This document shows positions 1-12,317 of a DNA stretch of 22,078 nucleotides, in pieces. The position numbers and the translations under genes are program-made. Within the stretch, counting starts at the first letter, position 1, and each line of letters opens with the position of its first letter. Under the pieces are notes generated by a model, which searched no databases, was not told the origin of the DNA, and was given only the letters and a program-made list of their open reading frames with translations. Source of the DNA: a virus; IMG/VR virus record IMGVR_UViG_3300032288_001861, positions 1 through 22,078 of that record; one strand, given 5' to 3'.

Positions 1-116
1 AGGATCACGGTTTTGCCCCCACCGGTAGGCAGGCATAGCAGTGGCGCCCGCGCGCCCTGCTGCATTGCGGAGCGCAGATCGCTAATTGCTTGCTGTTGGT
101 AATCCCGCAGGTTCAT
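1..116 (-). CDS. SF2 DEAD/DEAH-type helicase, N-terminus only
   Basis: Only the first 38 codons are in the window; the gene runs off the left edge. The reading frame begins MNLRDYQQQAISDLR, which is the usual start of phage superfamily 2 helicases. It then has a Walker A (motif I) segment, LPTGGGKTV, at about residues 29-37. The ATG at 116 overlaps the upstream stop as ATGA and has GGAG eight bases ahead, so the start is well supported. Proteins of this type unwind DNA with ATP during phage replication, recombination or restriction-like processes. The helicase motifs beyond motif I cannot be seen. It is the last visible member of the minus-strand cassette with the IbrA/IbrB-like genes, which suggests co-expression. 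Confidence 0.85.
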   Translation of the reverse strand, partial: MNLRDYQQQAISDLRSAMQQGARAPLLCLPTGGGKTVI

Positions 117-361
117 AGCGGCAACTCCAGCTGTGTGCCATCTGCGGGGGCACCATGCATAGCGATCTGGGCCATGGTCAGAGCGCGGCGCTGTTGATCG
201 TATGCAGGTCGTGCATAACCAAGTTGGTAGAGGTGCAGATCGTTCTGCAGCAAAGCGATTGCAACGGCCCGCCACGATGGCGCACGCCCTGACGCGGCAA
301 CCTTGGCTGGCACTTCATCGGGGATCTCGTGCGAATAACAACGGGCTTTCCACGTTTGCAC
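113..361 (-). CDS. Stand-alone homologue of the IbrA (DUF3440) C-terminal module
   Basis: This small protein (82 aa from GTG 361) aligns by eye with the last ~60 residues of the IbrA-like protein encoded at 1647-2963. Both have a proline/acid segment (here IPDEVP), then P/T-SW-(K/R), AI..L..ND, a short spacer, LG, and a QQRR basic stretch. The PP-loop part of that family is absent, so this is a separate C-terminal module. The frame stays open to an ATG at 445 (110 aa), but that would overlap the neighbouring gene by 131 bases. GTG at 361 leaves a 47-base overlap and still keeps the whole conserved part. The stop overlaps the helicase start (ATGA). The function is unknown; working with or regulating the full IbrA-like protein is an inference. 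Confidence 0.6.
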   Translation of the reverse strand: MQTWKARCYSHEIPDEVPAKVAASGRAPSWRAVAIALLQNDLHLYQLGYARPAYDQQRRALTMAQIAMHGAPADGTQLELPL

Positions 362-740
362 GTATTCCGAGACTCTGGCGGTAGCGCACCTCCCAGGCGC
401 AAATGGCTCGATCCGCTTGTCGGTTCGCCAATGTCCGTTGCTCATCGGTCAAAAGTCCCCATGCTTGTCTGGTGATGTCTTCAGGGCATCGCAAGGCAAG
501 CGCGCAGGCTGCGTGGCCGATCCATGCCTTGCGGTTCAGGTTGTAGTCGGTTAGTGCATTGATGCAGCTGTTGGGCCACTCCACGGTGACCCGTTGCATG
601 TAGCGCCCGTAAAGGCGGTGATTGCCGGTGAAGATCTGTGCGCGATACAGGGCGATGCGTCGATTTGGCACATCGCCCCACATGTTGAAACCGATCTCTT
701 CCCAAGCATCAATGGGCAACCAGATCCTCTTGAGCTTCAC
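315..740 (-). CDS. Conserved phage protein of unknown function beside IbrA/IbrB genes
   Basis: The protein has 141 aa from GTG 740, or 150 aa from TTG 767. It is rich in Trp, Ala and Arg, with a start region RIWLPIDAWEEIGFNMWGD and a core around NALTDYNLNRKAWIGHAACALA. It has no signal peptide or membrane segment and looks like a compact helical, soluble protein. I have a memory-level impression that similar short proteins sit next to phage PAPS-reductase-like genes, but I cannot name a family. Its 5' end overlaps the cupin-ParB gene (by 32 bases from GTG 740, 59 from TTG 767) and its 3' end overlaps the next small gene, so it belongs to the same translationally linked cassette. The start codon is uncertain because neither candidate has a clear Shine-Dalgarno sequence. 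Confidence 0.7.
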   Translation of the reverse strand: MKLKRIWLPIDAWEEIGFNMWGDVPNRRIALYRAQIFTGNHRLYGRYMQRVTVEWPNSCINALTDYNLNRKAWIGHAACALALRCPEDITRQAWGLLTDEQRTLANRQADRAICAWEVRYRQSLGIRANVESPLLFARDPR

Positions 741-1650
741 GTTCGAGATCTTCTGTGATGTTGTCAATCTGGTCTACGTCCCATGCCTTGCTGAAATCTT
801 TGCCAAGGAACAGCGAGGCCAGTCCGGTGACTTGCTTAAGGCGCAGCAGCTCATCAGGGCTCATGCCGATGTGCTTGCAAATCCATGCGTCGCCTTTACC
901 CATTTCGATCAGCTCGGCAACGATCACGCTCATTAGTTCGATGTTGTGTGAACCACGAGCGCGGTTGTGACGGATGGTTGACGCCATGCGGTCATGGAGC
1001 TCTTTGCGGAGCACAACCACGGGCAATCGGCCGCCTTCGCGTTCGCGGATGCGCTGGCTGTTTTTAAGGGTCAGGAATCGGTGAAAACCGTCAACGACCA
1101 CATAAAGGTCACGCTCGGCATCATGCACGACAACGACAGGTTGCGTGTAACCATCTTCCCAGATAGATGTTTCGAGTAGTGCCATTTCAGGCGGCGCCAC
1201 AGAGTTGGGGTTGTAATCATTGGCGGTAACTTTCTCGATAGGAATACTGCGAACAGAGTAGACCGGGGATCGCCAAGGGTAAGAGTCGTTCTCATCGTGG
1301 AGCTCATCGCCTTTAAGGGGTGGGTTGAATACACAGATCAGCGTGGTGGGCTCTAGGGCCTCAAAGGTATGCGGATCATGTTTGTCCAGCACATAGGTCA
1401 CATCAGGCGCAATGGCGTGGATCTCTTGCGTTGTTTCGTTGATCAGCAGACCTTTGCCGCTGACGCAGTAGCAAGTTTCTAGGTGGTGTTGATAGTGCCA
1501 ACGGTGCGGCTTGCCAGGGTGCACGATGGTTTTAGTCATGCTGTAGCCCATGCCGTCGTCTTCAGTGAGCAAGCGATGGCTGGTAAAGCCGCCCTTTGGG
1601 CAGTTGACAATGCGATCAGCTGGAAGCTGTGAAACGTTGAGGATCTTCAT
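709..1650 (-). CDS. Fusion protein: ectoine-synthase-like cupin plus IbrB/ParB-like domain
   Basis: This is one continuous 313 aa frame with two recognisable parts. Residues 1-125 match the whole length of ectoine synthase EctC, including DDGMG, HYQHHLE, a YCV.G.G turn, YVLDKHDPH and CVFNPPL.G.E.H. By alignment from memory, the EctC iron ligands (Glu57, Tyr85, His93 in the Paenibacillus enzyme) correspond to E58, Y86 and H94. The substrate-side Arg, Tyr, His, Glu and His also appear as R26, Y53, H56, E116 and H118. Residues ~130-300 are an IbrB/ParB-like domain with NDYNPN (144-149), EDGYTQPVVV (165-174), VVDGFHR (185-191) and a STIRHNRARG segment (224-233). The start overlaps the stop of the IbrA-like gene (ATGA), so the pair is translationally coupled. 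EctC normally cyclises N-gamma-acetyl-diaminobutyrate to ectoine, but no other ectoine gene is present; a sensor or modifying role is only an inference. Confidence 0.88.
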   Translation of the reverse strand: MKILNVSQLPADRIVNCPKGGFTSHRLLTEDDGMGYSMTKTIVHPGKPHRWHYQHHLETCYCVSGKGLLINETTQEIHAIAPDVTYVLDKHDPHTFEALEPTTLICVFNPPLKGDELHDENDSYPWRSPVYSVRSIPIEKVTANDYNPNSVAPPEMALLETSIWEDGYTQPVVVVHDAERDLYVVVDGFHRFLTLKNSQRIREREGGRLPVVVLRKELHDRMASTIRHNRARGSHNIELMSVIVAELIEMGKGDAWICKHIGMSPDELLRLKQVTGLASLFLGKDFSKAWDVDQIDNITEDLEREAQEDLVAH

Positions 1651-2963
1651 TTGGCGGAGCGGTTAAGGACTTGGCTGTACTTGCGTTGAATCGATCTTTG
1701 GCGGCGCTGCTGCTCTTGCGTTGGCGCCAGTCCCAGGTATTTGCAGGTGTGATCGTTCTTCAGAACCGTGATAGCAAAGCGCTTCCACGATGTGACCATA
1801 CTGTTGTGACAAGGCAGATCATCGAGATGATCGGGTGGCACCTTGATCACAACACGGCGCAAATTGTTTCCGCCATGCCGTGTGGTGCCATTGATGTAGA
1901 AGCGAATGCCGATACGGCTGAGCGCGTCAATGATCGACTCAGGAAGACCGCGCCCCACCCTGCCCCAGTAGCGGATTGATTGGATGAAGCGCTGCTTAAA
2001 ATTTGCGCTGGACTGATCCGGCAAGGTAGCCAGCAGGAACTTCACAAAGGATTTCCAAGTGTGGCCAGGCGGCAGCCTGAAGGATTTGTAATCAAGCTGC
2101 TTGCCATAGGTGGCCATGAAGTTGGCACCGCCAACGCGGGCGCAAAGCCTGGCCCAGATCTGCGGGTCAATCACCCGGTACATAGCAAGGCTGGATTTGG
2201 ACTCTGACATAAACGGCGAGGCAACCCTCATCTTTTTGATGGGGATACCAGCCATGTAGAACACGTCATAGAGCTTGTTGTAATCCCACCCAAACTTGGC
2301 GTTAGCGGTCCAGATGTCCTCTGTGCGCCAGTCGTAGATCGGATAGCAGTTGTAGGTATGCGCCGTGTTCTTTTTTGTCCACATGCGGCCGAGCATGGTC
2401 TCCTTCTCCTGATTCAGGATTGCCCTGAACCGGTTCAGTGATTCAACGGTGCGGATCCCGATGAGGTTGGCGCAAGGCTCACCTTGGCTGTACCACTCCG
2501 CGAACATGTCCCAAAAGGTGGCGTAGTCCATGTTTTCAATGAACAGATCGCCAAAGGGATGGTTCTGCAGGTTCACAATGTAATCCTGCTGCGGCATGGG
2601 GCGAATCCAGCGATGGCGGTCAGCCTCGCCCCAGCACTGCCAATCAATCTCGTAAGAGCTGACGGTGCAGGGCAGCGTGATGGGGAGGCAGCACCAGTAG
2701 ATGTCGAGGATGTCCCGATTGGCTTCGAGGATGCGGTGCATGAACTCCTCGCTGTGGTTGTAATTGGCTTCGTTGTCCATGATCTGGACGCCAATCTTGA
2801 CCGGCAGCTGTCTGTCTCGTATGTAGTCGCAAACGAGATTCAAGAGAACGCCGCTGTCCTTGCCACCAGAGAAGGAGACGTAGACGCGGGTGAAGTGGGC
2901 AAAGATGAAATCCAGCCGTTCTATGGCGGCGTCGTAGACGGATTGCTCGAGGTACTGGCGCAT
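1647..2963 (-). CDS. IbrA-like PP-loop protein (PAPS reductase family, DUF3440)
   Basis: The 438 aa protein opens with RVYVSFSGGKDSG (PP-loop SGGKDSG at residues 32-38), the ATP-pyrophosphatase signature shared by PAPS reductases, tRNA thiolation enzymes and DndC. Further family features are the GIRT segment near residue 169, CYPIYDWRTEDIW near 206-218, and the C-terminal TSWKR...LKND module at ~391-404. Length and order fit IbrA/DUF3440 proteins, which usually pair with an IbrB ParB-like protein, as here. IbrA and IbrB were named as regulators of Eib surface proteins in E. coli; the biochemical reaction is not established. Nucleotide activation by ATP cleavage is likely from the PP-loop. Sulfur transfer to DNA or RNA is speculation. 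ATG 2963 gives the usual family N-terminus, and the 3' end overlaps the cupin-ParB start. Confidence 0.88.
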   Translation of the reverse strand: MRQYLEQSVYDAAIERLDFIFAHFTRVYVSFSGGKDSGVLLNLVCDYIRDRQLPVKIGVQIMDNEANYNHSEEFMHRILEANRDILDIYWCCLPITLPCTVSSYEIDWQCWGEADRHRWIRPMPQQDYIVNLQNHPFGDLFIENMDYATFWDMFAEWYSQGEPCANLIGIRTVESLNRFRAILNQEKETMLGRMWTKKNTAHTYNCYPIYDWRTEDIWTANAKFGWDYNKLYDVFYMAGIPIKKMRVASPFMSESKSSLAMYRVIDPQIWARLCARVGGANFMATYGKQLDYKSFRLPPGHTWKSFVKFLLATLPDQSSANFKQRFIQSIRYWGRVGRGLPESIIDALSRIGIRFYINGTTRHGGNNLRRVVIKVPPDHLDDLPCHNSMVTSWKRFAITVLKNDHTCKYLGLAPTQEQQRRQRSIQRKYSQVLNRSAK

Positions 2964-3040: not shown

Positions 3041-3877
3041 ATGGAAAACGCCGACTATCACCGGCATTGGGCGGTGAGCAAGTCCGGCCTTGATCAGATC
3101 GCTAAGAGCCCCCTTCACTACTGGGCACGCTTTCTTGATCCTGATCGCGTCTGGACAGAGGCCACACCAGCCATGCGCCTCGGCACTGCGCTACATACGC
3201 ACGTGCTGGAGCTGAGCAAATGGGATGAGCAAATCGCCGTTGCTCCTATTGACATCAACCGCCGCACCAAGGAAGGGCGCGAGCAATGGGCAGCGTTTGA
3301 AGCTGCTGCCAAGCGCAAAACCGTGATCACCGCCGACGACGCCCAGCAAGTCATGGCCATGGGCCGTGCTGTGCTGCGTCACCCTGCTGCAGCAATGCTG
3401 CTAGGGCTGCCGGGCAAGGCTGAAACCACTCACATGTGGACTGATGCCAGCACCGGGCTCGAGTGCAAGTGTCGGCCGGATTGGCTGACCGATGACGGCA
3501 GCATCGTGGTGGATCTCAAGACCACCAAGGACGCCAGCCCGCGTGGCTTCAAGCAAAGCGTGGCCAATTTTGCCTGCCACAAGCAGGCTGCTTGGTATCT
3601 GCACGGACTTGAGCAGGCCACCGGTCGCCGGCCCGATCAGTTCATCTTCATCTGCGTGGAATCCACCGCGCCGTATGCCGTGGCGGTCTATGCCGCCGAT
3701 GCGGAGATGGTCGAGCGCGGGCACGATCAGGCCATGCGCGATTTGGCGAAATTGGCGATTTGCAAGGCCGCTGATCACTGGCCGAGCTACAGCGATCAGA
3801 TCGAAACCATCAGCCTGCCTGCTTGGATGACGGGCGCCACAGGCCAGCAGCAGACCACTGAGATCGAGACCTACTAA
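3041..3877 (+). CDS. RecB-family PD-(D/E)XK exonuclease, RecE/exonuclease VIII-like
   Basis: The 278 aa protein carries the RecB-nuclease motif series in order. LGTALH gives the conserved His (H52), RPD gives the first metal Asp (D147), VVDLK gives the D-x-K pair (D158, K160), and QAAWY gives the Q-x-x-x-Y motif (Q182-Y186). Its size and the opening Y.....SKS.L.....SP.HYWAR fit phage exonuclease VIII-like (DUF3799) proteins. Such enzymes resect one strand of duplex DNA to make single strands for the annealing protein. The next gene is exactly such an annealing protein, and the two overlap by one base (TAATG), so this is a RecE/RecT-type pair. ATG 3041 has only a G-rich run about 11-12 bases ahead as a possible ribosome site. 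Confidence 0.88.
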   Translation: MENADYHRHWAVSKSGLDQIAKSPLHYWARFLDPDRVWTEATPAMRLGTALHTHVLELSKWDEQIAVAPIDINRRTKEGREQWAAFEAAAKRKTVITADDAQQVMAMGRAVLRHPAAAMLLGLPGKAETTHMWTDASTGLECKCRPDWLTDDGSIVVDLKTTKDASPRGFKQSVANFACHKQAAWYLHGLEQATGRRPDQFIFICVESTAPYAVAVYAADAEMVERGHDQAMRDLAKLAICKAADHWPSYSDQIETISLPAWMTGATGQQQTTEIETY

Positions 3878-4557
3878 TGGATCCACAATCAGCCATCACA
3901 ACCCAGCCCACCGGCTCAGTGTTCTCTGGTATCCAAGCATTCGAGGATGCGCAACGGATCGCCAAGGCACTGGCCAGTAGCACGTTGATTCCGCCTCAGT
4001 TCCAAGGGCAGCAGGGTTTTGCTAACTGCCTGGTCGCGCTTGAGATTGCAGGCCGGATGGGCATCAGCCCATTCTTGGCGATGCAGCATCTGCACGTGAT
4101 CCACGGCCGCCCATCGTGGAGCAGCAGCTTCATCATTGCGATGGTGAACGGCTGCGGCCGGTTCAGCCCATTGCGGTTCGAGCTCAGCGGTGAAGGTGAC
4201 TCGCTTGCCTGCTATGCCGTGGCTACCGATCTCGCCAGCGACCAGGAGCTGAAGGGTCCATCCATCACGATGGCGATGGCCAAGAAGGAAGGATGGGCCA
4301 CCAAGAGCGGCAGCAAGTGGCTGACCATGCCAGAGCTGATGATCCGCTACCGCGCCGCTGCGTTCTGGGGTCGTCTGTACGCGAGTGACATGCTGCTGGG
4401 TATGCAAAGCCAGGAGGAGGTGCTCGACGTGCAGCCCGTCACGGTGACCGCAGCACCAGCGGCCAGCATTGCGGATCTGAACGATGCCATCGTGCAGCCG
4501 GTGCCAGCGGCACCCGTTGCAGCACCCGTTGAGGCGGATCAGGATGAACTCTTCTAG
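3877..4557 (+). CDS. recT: RecT-like single-strand DNA annealing protein
   Basis: The 226 aa protein has the typical phage RecT-like core. It contains a segment NCLVALEIAGRMGISPFLAMQ, then HGRPSWSSSFIIA, CGRFSPLRFE, a GPSITMAMAKKEGW block, and the final MPELMIRYRAAAFWGRLYA. RecT-family proteins anneal complementary single strands made by a partner 5'-3' exonuclease, which is the gene just upstream. The last ~40 residues form an Ala/Pro/Val-rich flexible linker ending in the acidic tip ADQDELF. This resembles the SSB C-terminal hook and may bind other replication proteins. The start overlaps the nuclease stop by one base. The 3' end overlaps the next HTH gene by 14 bases. Confidence 0.88.
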   Translation: MDPQSAITTQPTGSVFSGIQAFEDAQRIAKALASSTLIPPQFQGQQGFANCLVALEIAGRMGISPFLAMQHLHVIHGRPSWSSSFIIAMVNGCGRFSPLRFELSGEGDSLACYAVATDLASDQELKGPSITMAMAKKEGWATKSGSKWLTMPELMIRYRAAAFWGRLYASDMLLGMQSQEEVLDVQPVTVTAAPAASIADLNDAIVQPVPAAPVAAPVEADQDELF

Positions 4558-4735: not shown

Positions 4736-5064
4736 GCTTCAAGTTCAACCTAGGCATCTTCAAATCCACCAAACCCGAGAGCAAGGTGGATTTCAGCGGA
4801 ATGATGAACGTGAAGGTCGAGGAGCTCGACGCCTTCTGCGCGTTCGTGATGAGCCAGACGCCGGATCAGTACGGCTCGGTGCAGGTGCCCATCACCGGCT
4901 GGAAGAAGACGAGCCAGAAGGGTGTGGCGTATGTGAGCGCTGTGGCGCAGCCGCCGCGTGACTGGGTGCCACCTGCTGCTGCGCAGGCTGCTCAGGCCGC
5001 TGCCCAGAATCTGGCGACTGCCACCGATGGCGTGGTGCTCGATATCGAGCCGGATCTGTTCTAG
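4732..5064 (+). CDS. Small protein of the recombination operon with SSB-like acidic tail
   Basis: This 110 aa protein has no family that I can name. The N-terminal ~75 residues alternate polar and hydrophobic residues (VDFSGMMNVKVEEL..., VQVPITGWKKTSQKGVAYVSA), as in a small beta-rich fold. An Ala/Gln-rich linker (about residues 81-96) follows, then the acidic, hydrophobic tip LDIEPDLF. The layout of beta domain, flexible linker and acidic D-x-x-x-D-L-F tip is that of a single-strand DNA-binding protein. Position directly after the nuclease, recT and HTH genes supports a role in DNA recombination or replication. The function is an inference. The stop TAG shares the palindrome CTAG with the stop of the opposing gene. 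Confidence 0.72.
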   Translation: MSFKFNLGIFKSTKPESKVDFSGMMNVKVEELDAFCAFVMSQTPDQYGSVQVPITGWKKTSQKGVAYVSAVAQPPRDWVPPAAAQAAQAAAQNLATATDGVVLDIEPDLF

Positions 5065-5267
5065 GTCCGACCCATCAGCTCGCACTCAAGGCGAGCGATT
5101 TCATGAACGGCCTGCTGCAGCAGTTGTTGCTGATAGCAGGCTTGCTTCAAGAGTGCTGCGGTTATGGTGCCGGCATCTGGGCTATTGAGCAGGCTGCGGG
5201 CCTGCTTTTCTATTTCAAACTGCTGTTCGGCGGTCAGCTGAACTGCCATCCACTCACCGAAGTTCAT
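5061..5267 (-). CDS. Possible NblA-like (phycobilisome degradation) small protein
   Basis: The 68 aa protein lies alone on the minus strand within plus-strand genes. From the second in-frame ATG (residue 7) it reads VQLTAEQQFEIEK, resembling the N-terminal ELT.EQ.F of NblA, then a short turn (NSPDAGT) and a second helix LLKQACYQQQLLQQAV. Two helices of this size match NblA, which tags phycobilisomes for proteolysis and is carried by some freshwater cyanophages. The match is by eye and weak, and an unrelated helical-hairpin protein is possible. Start at 5249 (GGTGAG just ahead) may be better than 5267. Isolation on the opposite strand, with its own promoter needed in 5268-5308, fits a phage accessory (moron) gene. 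Its stop and that of the facing gene share CTAG at 5061-5064. Confidence 0.55.
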   Translation of the reverse strand: MNFGEWMAVQLTAEQQFEIEKQARSLLNSPDAGTITAALLKQACYQQQLLQQAVHEIARLECELMGRT

Positions 5268-5308
5268 GGTGCCATAGTGGTGGTGTACATGATCAGGCTA
5301 GCTGAACA

Positions 5309-5542
5309 GTGAATTGCCCCCGGTGCGGTTGCGGCGAGATCCGCGCAACGTATACCAATGGCAGGTTTGACGATCGGGTGATCAGGCAGCGGCGCTGCAC
5401 CGAGTGCCGCCATATCTGGTACACCGCGGAACTGCCGGTGAGCGTGGCGGTGGTGGGCTGGGAGCGCACGCAGGGCACAGGCAAAAGCGTGCCAATGCTG
5501 CGCGTCCCGGTGGAGCTGGCAGTGGGCACCGACGCAGTGTGA
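5309..5542 (+). CDS. Zinc-ribbon protein, NrdR-like N-terminal zinc finger
   Basis: The 77 aa protein starts at GTG 5309 as (M)NCPRCGCGEIRATY, continues to RQRRCTECRHIWYT, then a Val-rich beta segment. The two CxxC knuckles (CPRC and CTEC) about 28 residues apart, with basic RQRR just before the second, closely resemble the zinc ribbon that opens NrdR repressors. They also resemble phage transcription-factor-type zinc ribbons. There is no ATP-cone domain, so it is not a full NrdR. A role in DNA/RNA binding or as a transcription regulator is likely but not shown. The GTG lies 41 bases from the divergent minus-strand start, leaving only a very short intergenic region for two promoters. Confidence 0.75.
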   Translation: MNCPRCGCGEIRATYTNGRFDDRVIRQRRCTECRHIWYTAELPVSVAVVGWERTQGTGKSVPMLRVPVELAVGTDAV

Positions 5543-5563
5543 ATAGATGTTGCACGCATCCTG

Positions 5564-5590
5564 GCACGTGCACCGTCGACGGTGTATGAT
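5564..5590 (+). promoter_or_regulatory. Palindromic operator candidate abutting a -10-like box
   Basis: GCACGTGC (5564-5571) is a perfect 8-base palindrome. It runs into the perfect 14-base palindrome CACCGTCGACGGTG (5571-5584), which directly abuts TATGAT (5585-5590), a one-mismatch -10 hexamer. No good -35 box sits 16-18 bases upstream. The arrangement suggests a regulated promoter whose operator covers the spacer, but this is inferred from symmetry alone. Confidence 0.4.
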
Positions 5591-5597
5591 GGTGTCA

Positions 5598-5616
5598 CGA
5601 GGGAGAGGGCCCCTCG
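5598..5616 (+). other. Leader hairpin
   Basis: CGAGGG (5598-5603) pairs perfectly with CCCTCG (5611-5616) around a 7-base loop, just downstream of the putative -10 box. There is no U-tract, although an A-rich stretch follows (5618-5626). It could be a 5' stabilising or attenuating hairpin of the leader transcript. I could not match it to a known riboswitch class. Confidence 0.35.
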
Positions 5617-5793
5617 CAAAACAAAACCCTCCGCGGAACCGGGTACACGACGCGTCACCACGAGCCCAACACGCCCTAAGTAAGGCTGCATCGCCGGTTG
5701 GCCCGGCACTCCATTCAGGCCATAAGCCCGATAGCGCGCCCGGGATTCTCCGCTGTGGACAAGAGAACAGCCAGCCCTTACCGCCTCAGCGAG

Positions 5794-5815
5794 CTGCGAT
5801 CGCAGAGGTACCTCT
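5794..5815. promoter_or_regulatory. HIP1 site overlapping a second palindrome
   Basis: CTGCGATCGCAG (5794-5805) is a perfect 12-base palindrome holding the HIP1 octamer GCGATCGC, which is highly repeated in many cyanobacterial genomes. It shares AG with a second perfect 12-base palindrome, AGAGGTACCTCT (5804-5815). The pair ends 14 bases before the ATG at 5830. Either could be a protein-binding site; HIP1 also points to a cyanobacterial host. Confidence 0.5.
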
Positions 5816-5829
5816 TCACACACCGCCCC

Positions 5830-6024
5830 ATGCTCACCGCCACTCTCCTGGTGATCTGGAAGCTGTTCCTACCGCTGCTGCTTGTGGTCTCCGTGATCGA
5901 CTGGCTGACCGCCAGCGACAATCGCCGCGTCCGCATCCTGCGGCGCACTGGACTCACACAGCAACAGATCGCCACTCGTCTCAATCTCTCCGTCTATCGC
6001 GTTCGCAAAGCGCTTGCACAATGA
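5830..6024 (+). CDS. Single-pass membrane protein with C-terminal helix-turn-helix
   Basis: From ATG 5830 the 64 aa protein has one strongly hydrophobic helix near the N-terminus (LLVIWKLFLPLLLVVSVI). It is followed by a basic HTH, with RILRRTGLTQQQIATRLNLSV and a second helix YRVRKALAQ, as in sigma-70 region 4 or Trp-repressor-like folds. A membrane anchor plus a DNA-binding helix pair in so small a protein is uncommon. The HTH half resembles other mini HTH proteins of phages. There is no clear ribosome site, and the frame is open upstream to GTG 5755 and TTG 5698. It is the first gene of an 18-gene overlapping train; its stop overlaps the next start (ATGA). Confidence 0.68.
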   Translation: MLTATLLVIWKLFLPLLLVVSVIDWLTASDNRRVRILRRTGLTQQQIATRLNLSVYRVRKALAQ

Positions 6025-6152
6025 TCAACCACATCAACAACGCCATCTGCTGCCTGATCGCCGCGAGCGTGTTCGCCATGATCGGCGTCGAGTCCGGCGC
6101 GCATCACAGCCCCACCCACTCCGGCACGCAGCAGGTAGTGCGGCATGACTGA
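6021..6152 (+). CDS. Tiny membrane or secreted protein, unknown
   Basis: The 43 aa frame has one hydrophobic segment (AICCLIAASVFAMIGV) followed by a His/Ser/Thr-rich tail. It could be a single-pass membrane protein or a very short secreted peptide; no lipobox is convincing. The evidence that it is a gene is mainly positional. Its ATG overlaps the upstream stop by 4 bases and its stop overlaps the next start by 8 bases, exactly as in the rest of the gene train. Confidence 0.5.
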   Translation: MINHINNAICCLIAASVFAMIGVESGAHHSPTHSGTQQVVRHD

Positions 6153-6357
6153 CTTCCGTTTGTCTGTAGATCCAACAACGGATTCTGCCATCACCTTTCA
6201 CGAAAGCCCCTACTCAGCTGAAGTGATCCGCATCGATGCTCACGGATTTCACTACCGCGGCCAGTTCATCGAAGACGCGGGCGAGGCGCACCGCCTGTTG
6301 GTGGAATTCCTGCGCAAACACCAGCCCGACACCGACTGGAGGCACGCTGATGACTGA
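6145..6357 (+). CDS. Small phage protein, unknown
   Basis: The 70 aa protein starts at an ATGACTGA octamer. It contains the segment AEVIRIDAHGFHYRGQFIED followed by a helix AHRLLVEFLRKH. A short strand-rich part with a C-terminal helix resembles many uncharacterised phage early proteins. There is no signal peptide, membrane segment or catalytic motif. It overlaps both neighbours by 8 bases. Confidence 0.68.
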   Translation: MTDFRLSVDPTTDSAITFHESPYSAEVIRIDAHGFHYRGQFIEDAGEAHRLLVEFLRKHQPDTDWRHADD

Positions 6358-6526
6358 ACCACGCCGCTATTACTTCCGCATTCCAAGCGCCAATGTCTTT
6401 GAGTGCGTGACCGCCACCAGCCTCACGGAGGCAAAGCTCATCGCAGCTGATGACTGGCTCGAGTGGTGGTCAGAACTCGAATGGATCAACGTCGAAACCG
6501 TTACTGAAAGCATCAACTATGGCTGA
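6350..6526 (+). CDS. Small phage protein, unknown
   Basis: The 58 aa protein opens MTEPRRYYFRIPSANVFECV, has a central T.LTEAK.IAADDW helix and an acidic, Trp-rich end (DDWLEWWSELEWINVETV). The pattern of an aromatic strand, then a helix with a T/S-x-x-EAK motif, then an acidic strand is common in small phage proteins but carries no function I can name. The start is the second exact ATGACTGA junction of the train. Confidence 0.62.
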   Translation: MTEPRRYYFRIPSANVFECVTATSLTEAKLIAADDWLEWWSELEWINVETVTESINYG

Positions 6527-6755
6527 AATGAAAGGCGCACTCTTCCAGTGGCGCACTGATGCAGAACAGGTCGGCAACTATGGCGAAGGTGTCAGCCGAC
6601 CACGTCACAATGCCCGCGTGCGTGATTTCAAAGTCACCATCCGATTCCGGGATGCACGGCCAATCACGTGGTACACGCGCGCCGAATCAAAGCGCGCTGC
6701 TGAGAAGTACGCGCGCAACCGCTGGCCAAATGCCTACGCAGTGGAGGTCGAATGA
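6519..6755 (+). CDS. Small basic phage protein, unknown
   Basis: The 78 aa protein is basic, with a region VRDFKVTIRFRDARPITWYT followed by a helix RAESKRAAEKYARNRWP. The strand-turn-helix layout and abundance of Arg/Lys would suit nucleic-acid contact, but there is no recognised domain. The start ATGGCTGA is a variant of the octamer junction, overlapping the upstream stop by 8 bases. The stop overlaps the RlpA-like gene (ATGA). Confidence 0.65.
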   Translation: MAEMKGALFQWRTDAEQVGNYGEGVSRPRHNARVRDFKVTIRFRDARPITWYTRAESKRAAEKYARNRWPNAYAVEVE

Positions 6756-7075
6756 TCCGCGCTGCTTTGATCGCCGCGGCCCTGCTGCTGGCCAGCCCGG
6801 TGCAGTCGCGGCAGGTGACAGCAACCGTATATGCAACCGAGTTTCACGGCCGCACCACGTACTGCGGCGGCACCTACCAGCACTGGGGCATCAGCGCGGC
6901 GCATCCATGGCTGCCCTGCGGCACGCCGGTGCGAGTCAGCCACCGCGGCCGCACGCTGACGGTGCGCGTCACCGATCGGTGTGACTGCGGCTCGATCGAT
7001 CTCAGCGCCGGTGCTGCGCATCGCCTTGGTGTGCCGCTGGATGGCATCGCAACCGTTCACATTTCTCACCAATGA
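6752..7075 (+). CDS. Secreted RlpA-like double-psi beta-barrel protein
   Basis: The 107 aa protein has a clear signal peptide (residues 1-~19: MIRAALIAAALLLASPVQS). A compact double-psi beta-barrel of RlpA/expansin type follows. It begins at VTATVYATEFHGRTT, continues through TPVRVSHRGRTLTVRVTDRCDCG and closes with IDLSAGAAHRLGVPLDGIATV, where TDR and IDLS are the usual landmarks. Four cysteines (two around residues 38-56, two in DRCDCG) suggest disulfides in the periplasm. RlpA-like proteins bind or cleave peptidoglycan glycans. The SPOR domain of bacterial RlpA is absent. Its presence among early small genes, away from the lysis genes, suggests an envelope-modifying accessory role. Confidence 0.85.
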   Translation: MIRAALIAAALLLASPVQSRQVTATVYATEFHGRTTYCGGTYQHWGISAAHPWLPCGTPVRVSHRGRTLTVRVTDRCDCGSIDLSAGAAHRLGVPLDGIATVHISHQ

Positions 7076-10546: not shown

Positions 10547-10735
10547 ATGCAATACATCCTCCGAATCGGCCCGTGGCACGTCGGGCCGTTCTCCACTCAC
10601 CAAGGCGCGCAGCACTGGGCCGAGCGCCACGGCTGCGACGACTACACGATGATCCCGCTCGATGACCCGGATGAAGCGCCAGGTATCATCCATCGGCTGC
10701 GCATGGCGCCGCTTGCTACCCCTTGGAACCCGTGA
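10547..10735 (+). CDS. Lone plus-strand small protein, unknown
   Basis: The 62 aa protein reads QYILRIGPWHVGPFSTHQGAQ, then a helix HWAERHG, then an acidic DYTMIPLDDPDEAPG and a short basic end. The strand-helix-strand layout with G-P-F resembles small uncharacterised phage proteins in which a GPF turn precedes an A..WA helix. It is the only plus-strand gene among minus-strand genes from 9960 onward. Its last 20 bases overlap, tail to tail, the end of the dCTP deaminase gene. Confidence 0.62.
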   Translation: MQYILRIGPWHVGPFSTHQGAQHWAERHGCDDYTMIPLDDPDEAPGIIHRLRMAPLATPWNP

Positions 10736-11231
10736 CGCCCAGATTTGCGTTGTAGCGGCCCGTCTCCGCATAGCTGCGTTCCACGGTCCCGCTCACCAGC
10801 AGAAACTTCATCTGCCCAATCCGCAGCCCAGGCCAAATCGGCAGCGGATGCAGGCGCCGCTGATTGCGTAGTTCCATCGTGAGCCTGCTGCCGAACCACC
10901 CTGGATCCGCCCAGCCGGCTTCAGCATGATCCCATCCCTCGCGTGCGCGGCTCGACTTCAGGACAAACTGAGCGCCGACGTGATTTGGCAGGTTGAAGAT
11001 CTCCTGCGTCTCAGCCAGGAAGAATTCACCGGGCTGGATCCAGAACGGATCGTCCTTGCTGTGGCCATGCAGCTGCACCTTCTGTAGCTCTGGTGTGCTG
11101 GCCACCTCCATCATGATCTGACCGCCGAGCGTCACGTCATAACTGGCTGGATTGAGCTGCTCCTCGTTGTATGGCTGCAGCATTGAATGCTGCTTGCACA
11201 GCCGGCGGATCTCGTGGTCAGGTACCAGCAC
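10716..11231 (-). CDS. dcd: dCTP deaminase-like protein
   Basis: The 171 aa protein has the main dCTP deaminase/dUTPase-fold landmarks. LNPASYDVTLG lies near residues 26-36, LKSSRAREG at 91-99, AGWADPGWFG at 105-114, and LTMELRN at 117-123 with the catalytic Glu at E120. WPGLRIGQMKF (133-143) and a C-terminal SYAETGRY complete the pattern. Dcd converts dCTP to dUTP, or to dUMP in bifunctional forms, feeding dTTP synthesis during phage replication. The start is GTG 11231, six bases after the endolysin stop. Whether it is mono- or bifunctional cannot be told by eye. Confidence 0.85.
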   Translation of the reverse strand: MLVPDHEIRRLCKQHSMLQPYNEEQLNPASYDVTLGGQIMMEVASTPELQKVQLHGHSKDDPFWIQPGEFFLAETQEIFNLPNHVGAQFVLKSSRAREGWDHAEAGWADPGWFGSRLTMELRNQRRLHPLPIWPGLRIGQMKFLLVSGTVERSYAETGRYNANLGVTGSKG

Positions 11232-11237
11232 AGGCGT

Positions 11238-12317
11238 TCAATAATCCCAGCGCACCTTAGGGCGGCCAGAGCGGATGCCCAGATGCACAAATCCTTTATA
11301 TGCGCCATAGCCGAGCGAGAACGGCCAATGCTTATCGCACCAGTTCTGCACGACGTAAGTGTCCTCACCATCGATGTAGAAATCGACTGCGCCACATCCC
11401 GGCTGATACAGATGCTCGCTGTTGCTGGCACCACCAGCCTGCCGGTTGATCGCCTCAGGCCGATAGCCGGATGTGATCACGATTGGTCGCCCACCAAACT
11501 GCACGCGCACCCGTTCAAGGAATACTGCTAGTTCTGCAGCAATATCGAGCTGGCTCTGATTCTGAAAGCGCCTAGCCTCCTGATCAAGCGCAAATTCCCC
11601 CAGCCTGATGTGCGGCGTGATCCTGGCCGTGAATGGGCTGCCGGGCCGCAGCTTCGCGGTCTCTGGTTCGGCTATGGCTTGATGCTGCCCCCAGAGTTTG
11701 CCCTCAGCACGGCGCCGGCGCAGCAGGCCAGCCTCAACGTTGGTGCCGGGGTTGCGGTAAAGCTCAAGCGCTGCGGGCACTGCGGCCCAGTCACGGTCAC
11801 ACAGGCACTTGCTGATGGTTTCAAATCCAGCGGTGCCGTAGAAACCAGCGCCCAGGTTGTAGGCGAAGCTCACCAACGCCGAGCGCTGGTTGTCATCCAT
11901 CACATTCCAATGCGGCACGGTGGTGCGCAGCTTGTCGGTGATGCGGTCGATCTCAAGGCGCAGGAGCATGTCGGCCTCGATCACGTTGATCATGTCGCCG
12001 CGTTTTACGGGCGTGCCGTTGCTGTAGCGCGTGGTGCCATAGCCGATGGTCCACGGGTCGCCATTGCTGAGCGGATCGGGGTATGCGCTTAGGTGACAGC
12101 CCTCGAACTCTTTAATCAGCTTGATGGCGCCGGCCAGATCGGTTTGTTTGCCGTCTTGACTCCACGTCTGGAACCAGTCCCGATCGCGCCGCATCACTGC
12201 GTCGTATGTATTGGCGGCCAGCTCAGCCTCTAGCTGTTGAATCGCAGCAGTCTGATGCGGCAGTGCTTTGTAGTACTTGAACAGCTGTTGCAGCGTGATC
12301 GGTGCATCGTTCGCCAT
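11238..12317 (-). CDS. Two-domain endolysin: GH24 lysozyme plus M15 peptidase
   Basis: The 359 aa protein has a ~60 aa helical N-terminal part. A T4-type lysozyme domain (about 62-215) follows, with the catalytic Glu in EFEG (E72), the Asp of YPDP (D81) and the Thr of WTIGYG (T90), plus the later QRSALVSFAYNLG segment. The second enzyme is a C-terminal M15 peptidase (about 225-359): SGYRPEAINRQAGGASNSEH, CGAVDF and FVHLGI give the metal ligands H302, D312 and H345. It would cut both the glycan and the peptide part of peptidoglycan for lysis. There is no signal peptide, so it needs a holin; small membrane proteins lie just upstream. ATG 12317 sits 3 bases after the preceding stop. Confidence 0.9.
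   Translation of the reverse strand: MANDAPITLQQLFKYYKALPHQTAAIQQLEAELAANTYDAVMRRDRDWFQTWSQDGKQTDLAGAIKLIKEFEGCHLSAYPDPLSNGDPWTIGYGTTRYSNGTPVKRGDMINVIEADMLLRLEIDRITDKLRTTVPHWNVMDDNQRSALVSFAYNLGAGFYGTAGFETISKCLCDRDWAAVPAALELYRNPGTNVEAGLLRRRRAEGKLWGQHQAIAEPETAKLRPGSPFTARITPHIRLGEFALDQEARRFQNQSQLDIAAELAVFLERVRVQFGGRPIVITSGYRPEAINRQAGGASNSEHLYQPGCGAVDFYIDGEDTYVVQNWCDKHWPFSLGYGAYKGFVHLGIRSGRPKVRWDY

Follow-up and report, generated by a model that had tools for sequence, protein, structure and literature searches.

The closest described systems for the locus reported here are the IbrA/IbrB pair of prophages and plasmids, the Dnd and Dpd systems, and ectoine synthase (EctC). IbrA is a PAPS-reductase-like DUF3440 protein and IbrB a ParB-like protein. 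Annotations describe them as co-activators of prophage gene expression (PMC4490671), and the IbrA family phrog_2302 is filed under auxiliary metabolic genes. We found no functional account of IbrA/IbrB, YbdM/YbdN or DUF3440 in the literature. Proteins of the ParB fold act as NTP switches and often carry further domains; they bind CTP, ATP or GTP, with a specificity that is unpredictable from sequence (PMC12704722). Moreover, Dnd and Dpd use ParB-like proteins in DNA modification (PMC12839542).

In the window (the whole stretch of viral DNA analysed, 22,078 nucleotides), the frame at positions 709-1650, which comes next after IbrA, encodes an EctC-type cupin, intact and fused to an IbrB/ParB domain. 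The two Ibr proteins are those of prophages and plasmids, in the same order. The features of this region are:

3-275, minus strand: start of a ResIII/DEAD-type helicase gene, cut by the contig end (Pfam ResIII, E 1.8e-6; phrog_16 DNA helicase)
113-445, minus strand: o4, 110 aa, stand-alone paralogue of the IbrA DUF3440 C-terminal domain; its family matches PF11922
315-740, minus strand: o3, about 141 aa, all-helical; the ORF is open from 767, and the GTG start at 740 is placed from relatives
709-1650, minus strand: EctC-IbrB fusion, whole ORF, 313 aa
751-1254, minus strand: IbrB/ParB-Srx-fold domain, fusion residues about 133-300, motif VVDGFHRF, with a short linker to the cupin
1273-1650, minus strand: EctC-type cupin domain, fusion residues 1-126, Fe ligands E58, Y86 and H94, F22 at the Trp21 equivalent
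1647-2963, minus strand: IbrA-like ATP-pyrophosphatase, PAPS-reductase fold, DUF3440 C-terminal domain, 438 aa, intact SGGKDS PP-loop

Dnd (ParB-like DndB, PAPS-reductase-like DndC) and Dpd (ParB-like ATPase DpdB) likewise pair a ParB/Srx-fold protein with a nucleic-acid modifying enzyme, which here is putative. Only the parts are alike, whereas the overall content is unrelated: no DndA, DndD, DndE or DpdA was recognised.

The EctC-IbrB fusion in the window and in other phages

The first-pass annotation, made from the letters alone, described an unbroken 313 aa frame joining a full-length EctC-like cupin to an IbrB-type ParB domain, and all of this held. The ORF runs from ATG to TGA on the minus strand with no internal stop. 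Residues 15-126 matched Pfam Ectoine_synth (PF06339; E 4.7e-37, 127.5 bits, cut-off 27), and the cupin scored 136.1 bits against the NCBIfam ectoine synthase model PRK13290 (cut-off 128). The PDB sequence relatives of the first half were ectoine synthases (5bxx, E 2.6e-25). Comparing the two halves separately by structure, as had been proposed, gave an EctC fold for the first, with the EctC ligands retained, and a ParB-type fold for the second. The AlphaFold2 model of the cupin, with pLDDT 94-98 across most of the domain, matched ectoine synthase 5bxx with a TM-score of 0.95 and an rmsd of 1.1 A (Foldseek).

For the second half, residues 74-307 matched the ParB-like family phrog_2159 (E 3e-77). 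The Pfam ParB_N match was weak and sub-threshold (22.3 bits, cut-off 26.3), and the PDB profile relatives (ParB, Noc and SbnI) were all weak. Foldseek returned ParB, Noc and KorB structures, with the nucleotide-binding core of the ParB fold present. An IRHNRARG block is invariant or nearly so among the aligned homologues, and the phage ParB half is about 59-72% identical to cupin-less relatives from bacterial genomes. The leading families among 95 neighbour proteins included no ParA partner. A P. mirabilis match starting at residue 70 was set aside, as the N-terminal extension there is of another kind and no remnant of a cupin.

We scanned IMG/VR with the window protein, retaining the best 80 of 227 relatives, and a second scan with the copy of phage Gaia as query added more divergent ones. 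The compared set holds 121 copies: 94 fused ORFs, and 27 loci where cupin and ParB are separate, nearly always adjacent, genes. The search for other fusions suggested by the first-pass annotation gave this set of at least 94 fused copies, with shared neighbour genes. Among cultured phages, the Mycobacterium smegmatis phages Gaia and Nebkiss carry the fusion, and Pseudoalteromonas phage XCL1123 has cupin and ParB as two separate ORFs. In one scan, bacterial genomes held almost only cupin-less IbrAB pairs. Fused and split states switch several times on the cupin tree, and since the two parts are separate neighbouring genes in 27 loci, the fusion itself is not essential.

An assembly or frameshift artefact between the two parts, a danger already named in the first-pass annotation, or a decaying fusion with no function, would fit with XCL1123 and the 26 further loci that have the two parts as separate ORFs. 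Either is extremely improbable. The 94 fused ORFs are intact and come from independent contigs, two cultured phages share the fusion, and the active site is invariant. Besides, omega in the cupin half is about 0.04-0.09 when close relatives are compared, as expected under purifying selection. A sequencing artefact was rejected on the 94 fused copies.

No described system was said to combine these parts. In the literature searched, we found no paper on a combined EctC-IbrB system, and the main text of a 2025 survey of ParB-fold fusions (PMC12704722) is without cupin, ectoine or IbrB. That statement has to be narrowed, since GenBank already names Gaia gp104 an "ectoine synthase/ParB multidomain protein" and Nebkiss has the same protein. 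Gaia, Nebkiss and XCL1123 carry a homologous cassette (PAPS reductase, EctC-ParB, o3 and o4) that is known from database annotation only. Beyond the Gaia annotation, what is new here is the cassette membership, the Trp-less phage EctC clade and the in-cassette EctD.

A conserved cassette around the cupin

The cupin is part of a conserved four-gene phage cassette, IbrA > EctC-IbrB > o3 > o4. The first-pass annotation was right that the fusion exists and that it has an IbrA partner (the gene at 1647-2963 adjoins it, and the IbrA stop overlaps the fusion start by 4 nt), but it took the fusion as the unit and overlooked the larger cassette with o3 and o4. IbrA was found in 119 of the 121 cupin loci, the remaining two being contig starts. 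Both o3 and o4 were present in 106 of 108 testable cupin-bearing loci (those with at least 900 nt past ParB); the exceptions are L085 and L125, the latter near a contig end. In the window, o3 and o4 each overlap the preceding gene. Gene order is permuted in L101 and L115, with the modules still together.

The window IbrA matched Pfam DUF3440 (E 7.4e-54) and PAPS_reduct (E 8e-9), and phrog_2302 with E 2e-107. Its match to the cysH model was weak (E 0.008), and PADLOC found it weakly DndC-like (E 3e-7), with no PADLOC match for the fusion, o3 or o4. A sequence search of the PDB gave no IbrA relatives. SGGKDS, C92, C407 and other residues are at least 95% conserved among 151 homologues, and the IbrA of cupin cassettes has additional conserved cysteines (C110 and C274) compared with cupin-less pairs. 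The SGGKDS ATP-pyrophosphatase loop is not a feature of true PAPS reductases. Because the full PP-loop is present in at least 95% of the 151 homologues and the cysH match is weak, IbrA does not qualify as a sulfonucleotide reductase (CysH), and its predicted type is an ATP-pyrophosphatase.

The other two genes encode small proteins. o3 had no PDB match by sequence or by fold (TM-score up to 0.25). Its AlphaFold2 model is all-helical (pLDDT 91.8), W13, E14, W55, N69, A72, G75 and A109 are invariant in a 46-member alignment, and o3 is a predicted new all-helical family. For o4, 34 of 35 members matched PF11922 (best E 4e-8); taken alone, the window copy gave a weak DUF3440 match (E 0.079).

Cupin-less IbrA/IbrB pairs of bacterial genomes lack the cupin, o3 and a stand-alone o4. 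Among 25 cupin-less loci with room for them, o3/o4 occurred only in L119 (cut at its start) and L120. We dropped the idea that o3 is exclusive to cupin cassettes: phages Amjad_SA and Mwe-JY13 carry it in IbrAB cassettes that have no cupin, so o3 is a wider feature of IbrAB systems. The ParB-domain tree of cupin-bearing and cupin-less loci is poorly resolved, and the cupin-bearing members do not form one clade.

Some loci have particular arrangements. L120 has o3 and o4 fused in a single ORF (1460-2191, minus strand), with the ParB gene on the other strand. In L077 (4074-5333), o4 is seemingly fused to about 300 additional residues. L114 encodes a 354-aa protein between IbrA and the cupin (4937-5998), with its own ParB/DndB-like motif (VVDGFHRFLGAKGAG) and no Pfam match. 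L064 has a second, partial IbrA soon after o4 at the contig end (539-1858 and 3924-4256), which suggests a tandem cassette or a terminal repeat. Both Gaiaviruses differ from the window in an additional GIY-YIG-like endonuclease gene between EctC-IbrB and o3 (L082 6890-7264, Gaia gp105; Nebkiss gp105), and XCL1123 differs in its two separate ORFs.

The neighbours of the cassette are helicases, primases, Holliday-junction resolvases, RecT/Erf and NinB/NinG proteins. The helicase at 3-275 is a possible further cassette partner. An SNF2-like helicase lies directly upstream of IbrA in all six cupin-less bacterial IbrAB loci tested (L127, L133, L134, L140, L147 and L152), and an SNF2-type helicase is likely the third member of the core IbrAB system.

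Elsewhere in the window, a RecE-type nuclease (DUF3799) and a RecT-like annealing protein are encoded at 3041-4557 on the plus strand, divergent from the cassette. The minus strand carries a nucleotide-pool gene of the dCTP deaminase family at 10716-11231 (phrog_1663) and a 359-aa endolysin that combines phage lysozyme and M15 peptidase domains at 11238-12317. A tail gene shares 75% identity with Synechococcus phage S-CBS3, and the sequence suggests a picocyanobacterial, Synechococcus-type host.

The cupin active site and ectoine-pathway genes

The phage cupin shares with ectoine synthase (5bxx, 5onm, 5onn and 5ono) the fold, the equivalents of the iron ligands Glu57, Tyr85 and His93, those of Ser23, Arg25, Thr40 and Tyr52, and the Glu and His of the C-terminal lid. 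The first-pass annotation placed the iron ligands E58, Y86 and H94 correctly. They are invariant in the 121 phage cupins together with S24, R26, T41, Y53, E116 and H118, and H56 is kept in 120. In P. lautus EctC, the equivalents of these positions contact iron, substrate or product (PMC6344544); E116 and H118, in the C-terminal lid stretch, are outside this set of contacts.

The claim that several substrate-side residues are kept holds only in part, as Trp21, the piston that presses on ADABA, is lost. In EctC, W21A keeps 9.7% activity; all of 437 ect-cluster EctCs have Trp21, and 145 orphans have it in place or shifted (PMC6344544). A Trp within eight residues before the Ser23 equivalent was present in 43/43 cellular copies and 0/121 phage copies, where the position is mostly Phe or deleted. 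One added cellular orphan-type EctC (L215) is also without it. Phe96 is a second phage mark, where cells have Leu, Val or Ile. At position 38, cells have His or Asn and most fused phage copies Thr; as a universal phage mark, Asn38 to Thr was dropped because 12 split copies keep His. We also dropped V to C60, which is common to orphan-type cellular EctCs.

In the tree, one branch separates the phage cupins from cellular EctCs (support 100/99), also with orphan-type EctCs added. By these sequences, the phage EctCs are a clade or subfamily of their own without the catalytic Trp. The orphan-type cellular EctCs L210-L214 and L217 have a shifted Trp (VDWGNG) and ACYC/SVFNPP motifs like those of split phage cupins; they are a possible source lineage of the phage clade. 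Given the invariant iron/substrate set and the lost Trp21, iron-amide chemistry has probably been kept and the substrate changed. With Trp21 absent from 121/121 copies, plain ADABA cyclisation is doubtful.

EctD homologues lie in or beside four cassettes:

L097, 4202-5047 and 5014-6552: EctD homologue, and a methyltransferase-like domain within a 512-aa fusion ORF
L206, 5998-7394: EctD homologue, with a methyltransferase-like protein alongside
L207, about 5998-6876: EctD homologue
L125, 2263-3111: EctD homologue

Three scans of IMG/VR with different queries, one of them a signature pattern, found EctD-bearing viral contigs only in L097, L206 and L207, all with EctD inside the cassette. L125 is an acidobacterial MAG contig with EctD directly after the fusion. 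The four homologues share with ectoine hydroxylase (TIGR02408; 3emr and 4mhr) the Fe-binding HxD...H and the WHSDFETWH signature, and all keep the C-terminal Arg. In L097, the dioxygenase gene with this signature is between IbrA and the fusion. Unlike ect-cluster EctD, they belong to an IbrAB operon, the window contig has none, and three of four are below the curated cut-off of the NCBIfam ectoine-hydroxylase model (336.5 bits; L125 371, L207 285, L206 188 and L097 173). L206 has a methyltransferase-like gene beside EctD, and in L097 a methyltransferase-like domain is placed between cupin and ParB; a sequence pattern and a weak RrmJ match suggest this assignment.

With L206 and L207 set apart, one search found EctD in 0/47 cassette records. 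EctA and class-III aminotransferases (EctB superfamily) were found in none of 25 phage records, of which two are complete genomes. Thus, the complete ectoine pathway is lacking, and ring-modifying chemistry is selectively recruited to the cassette. The EctD in the cassette is the strongest new evidence for the cupin as an enzyme.

The same gene could point to an auxiliary metabolic role, in which a solitary ectoine synthase acts on host-derived N-gamma-ADABA, EctD makes hydroxyectoine that protects the infected cell, and the fusion to IbrB is incidental. The intact EctC fold and iron site agree with it, as do the four EctDs (one above the ectoine-hydroxylase cut-off) and the existence of solitary bacterial EctCs, one of which made ectoine from a plant-supplied precursor (PMC5924519). 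We nevertheless consider it hardly probable: the 25 records lack EctA and class-III aminotransferases, the Trp that positions ADABA is gone from all phage copies, and the constant coupling to IbrA, IbrB, o3 and o4 would go unexplained. Moreover, the host is likely of Synechococcus type, and the Synechococcus elongatus control genome gave no EctC or EctA match.

For the role of the cupin, the first-pass annotation had offered sensing or modification of a small metabolite, or recruitment into the IbrA/IbrB system to modify nucleotides or amino acids. We retain the second; the invariant iron/substrate residues and the in-cassette EctD genes favour an enzyme over a sensor. As a ligand-sensing regulator, the cupin would bind a metabolite, control DNA binding or NTPase activity of the ParB half and co-activate prophage or host genes. 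This agrees with the co-activator annotation of IbrA/IbrB (PMC4490671), with ParB-fold proteins as often fused NTP switches (PMC12704722) and with a pocket altered from that of EctC. It is improbable, though, as the three metal ligands and the amide-activating residues are more than sensing requires, operons that also encode EctD point to chemistry, and the cupin is a separate gene in 27 loci.

Proposed function of the cassette

We favour, with a probability of about 0.5, the reading that the cupin is an enzyme that closes a ring by EctC-type chemistry on something other than free ADABA, within an IbrAB-dependent modification pathway that plausibly acts on nucleic acid. We rate a role as a sensor, or in making free ectoine, as less likely. 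The domains, the retained active-site residues, the selection, the cassette membership and the EctDs in or beside four cassettes are read from sequence; catalysis, ring product, substrate, nucleic-acid target and biological benefit are what we infer.

Under the favoured reading, the fusion would supply the cyclase and the NTPase of an IbrA/IbrB-type modification cassette in phages. IbrA, as an ATP-pyrophosphatase, would activate the target, and the ParB/Srx-fold half, as an NTP-binding module, would load or gate it together with IbrA. In the Fe(II) cupin, iron would polarise an amide, an adjacent amine would attack and water would be lost, giving an ectoine-like ring. o3 and o4 would be dedicated accessory proteins, and o4, as a copy of the IbrA C-terminal domain, may aid substrate binding. 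In some phages, an EctD-type enzyme would hydroxylate the ring, perhaps with methylation. The substrate is probably not free ADABA and plausibly attached to nucleic acid, given the position of the cassette among replication and recombination genes and the ParB-plus-PAPS-reductase pairs of known DNA-modifying systems.

Several points weigh on the other side. EctD is an occasional addition to the cassette, which counts against the favoured reading. No phage copy has the piston Trp21, so the cupins may no longer be catalytic or may catalyse something else. Cupin-less IbrAB pairs are common, so the cupin would be an add-on to an IbrAB core activity. A replication-region location is common for phage accessory genes, and nucleic acid as the target, taken alone, is tentative and below even odds. 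Also below even odds is a specific nucleic-acid hypermodification, in which IbrA/IbrB would add an amide side chain to a base (of phage DNA or host RNA), the cupin would close an ectoine-like ring, and hydroxylation by EctD and methylation would be optional. If this holds, the modified nucleotide would be of a new class, and IbrAB would gain its first biochemical role.

IbrA/IbrB are widespread in phages, prophages and plasmids, and often labelled as PAPS reductases or ParB partition proteins. The genes of this cassette should not be read as sulfur-assimilation or osmoprotection genes. The cassette offers a concrete chemical hypothesis, an iron-dependent ring closure followed by hydroxylation, and has cultured carriers in Gaia, Nebkiss and XCL1123.
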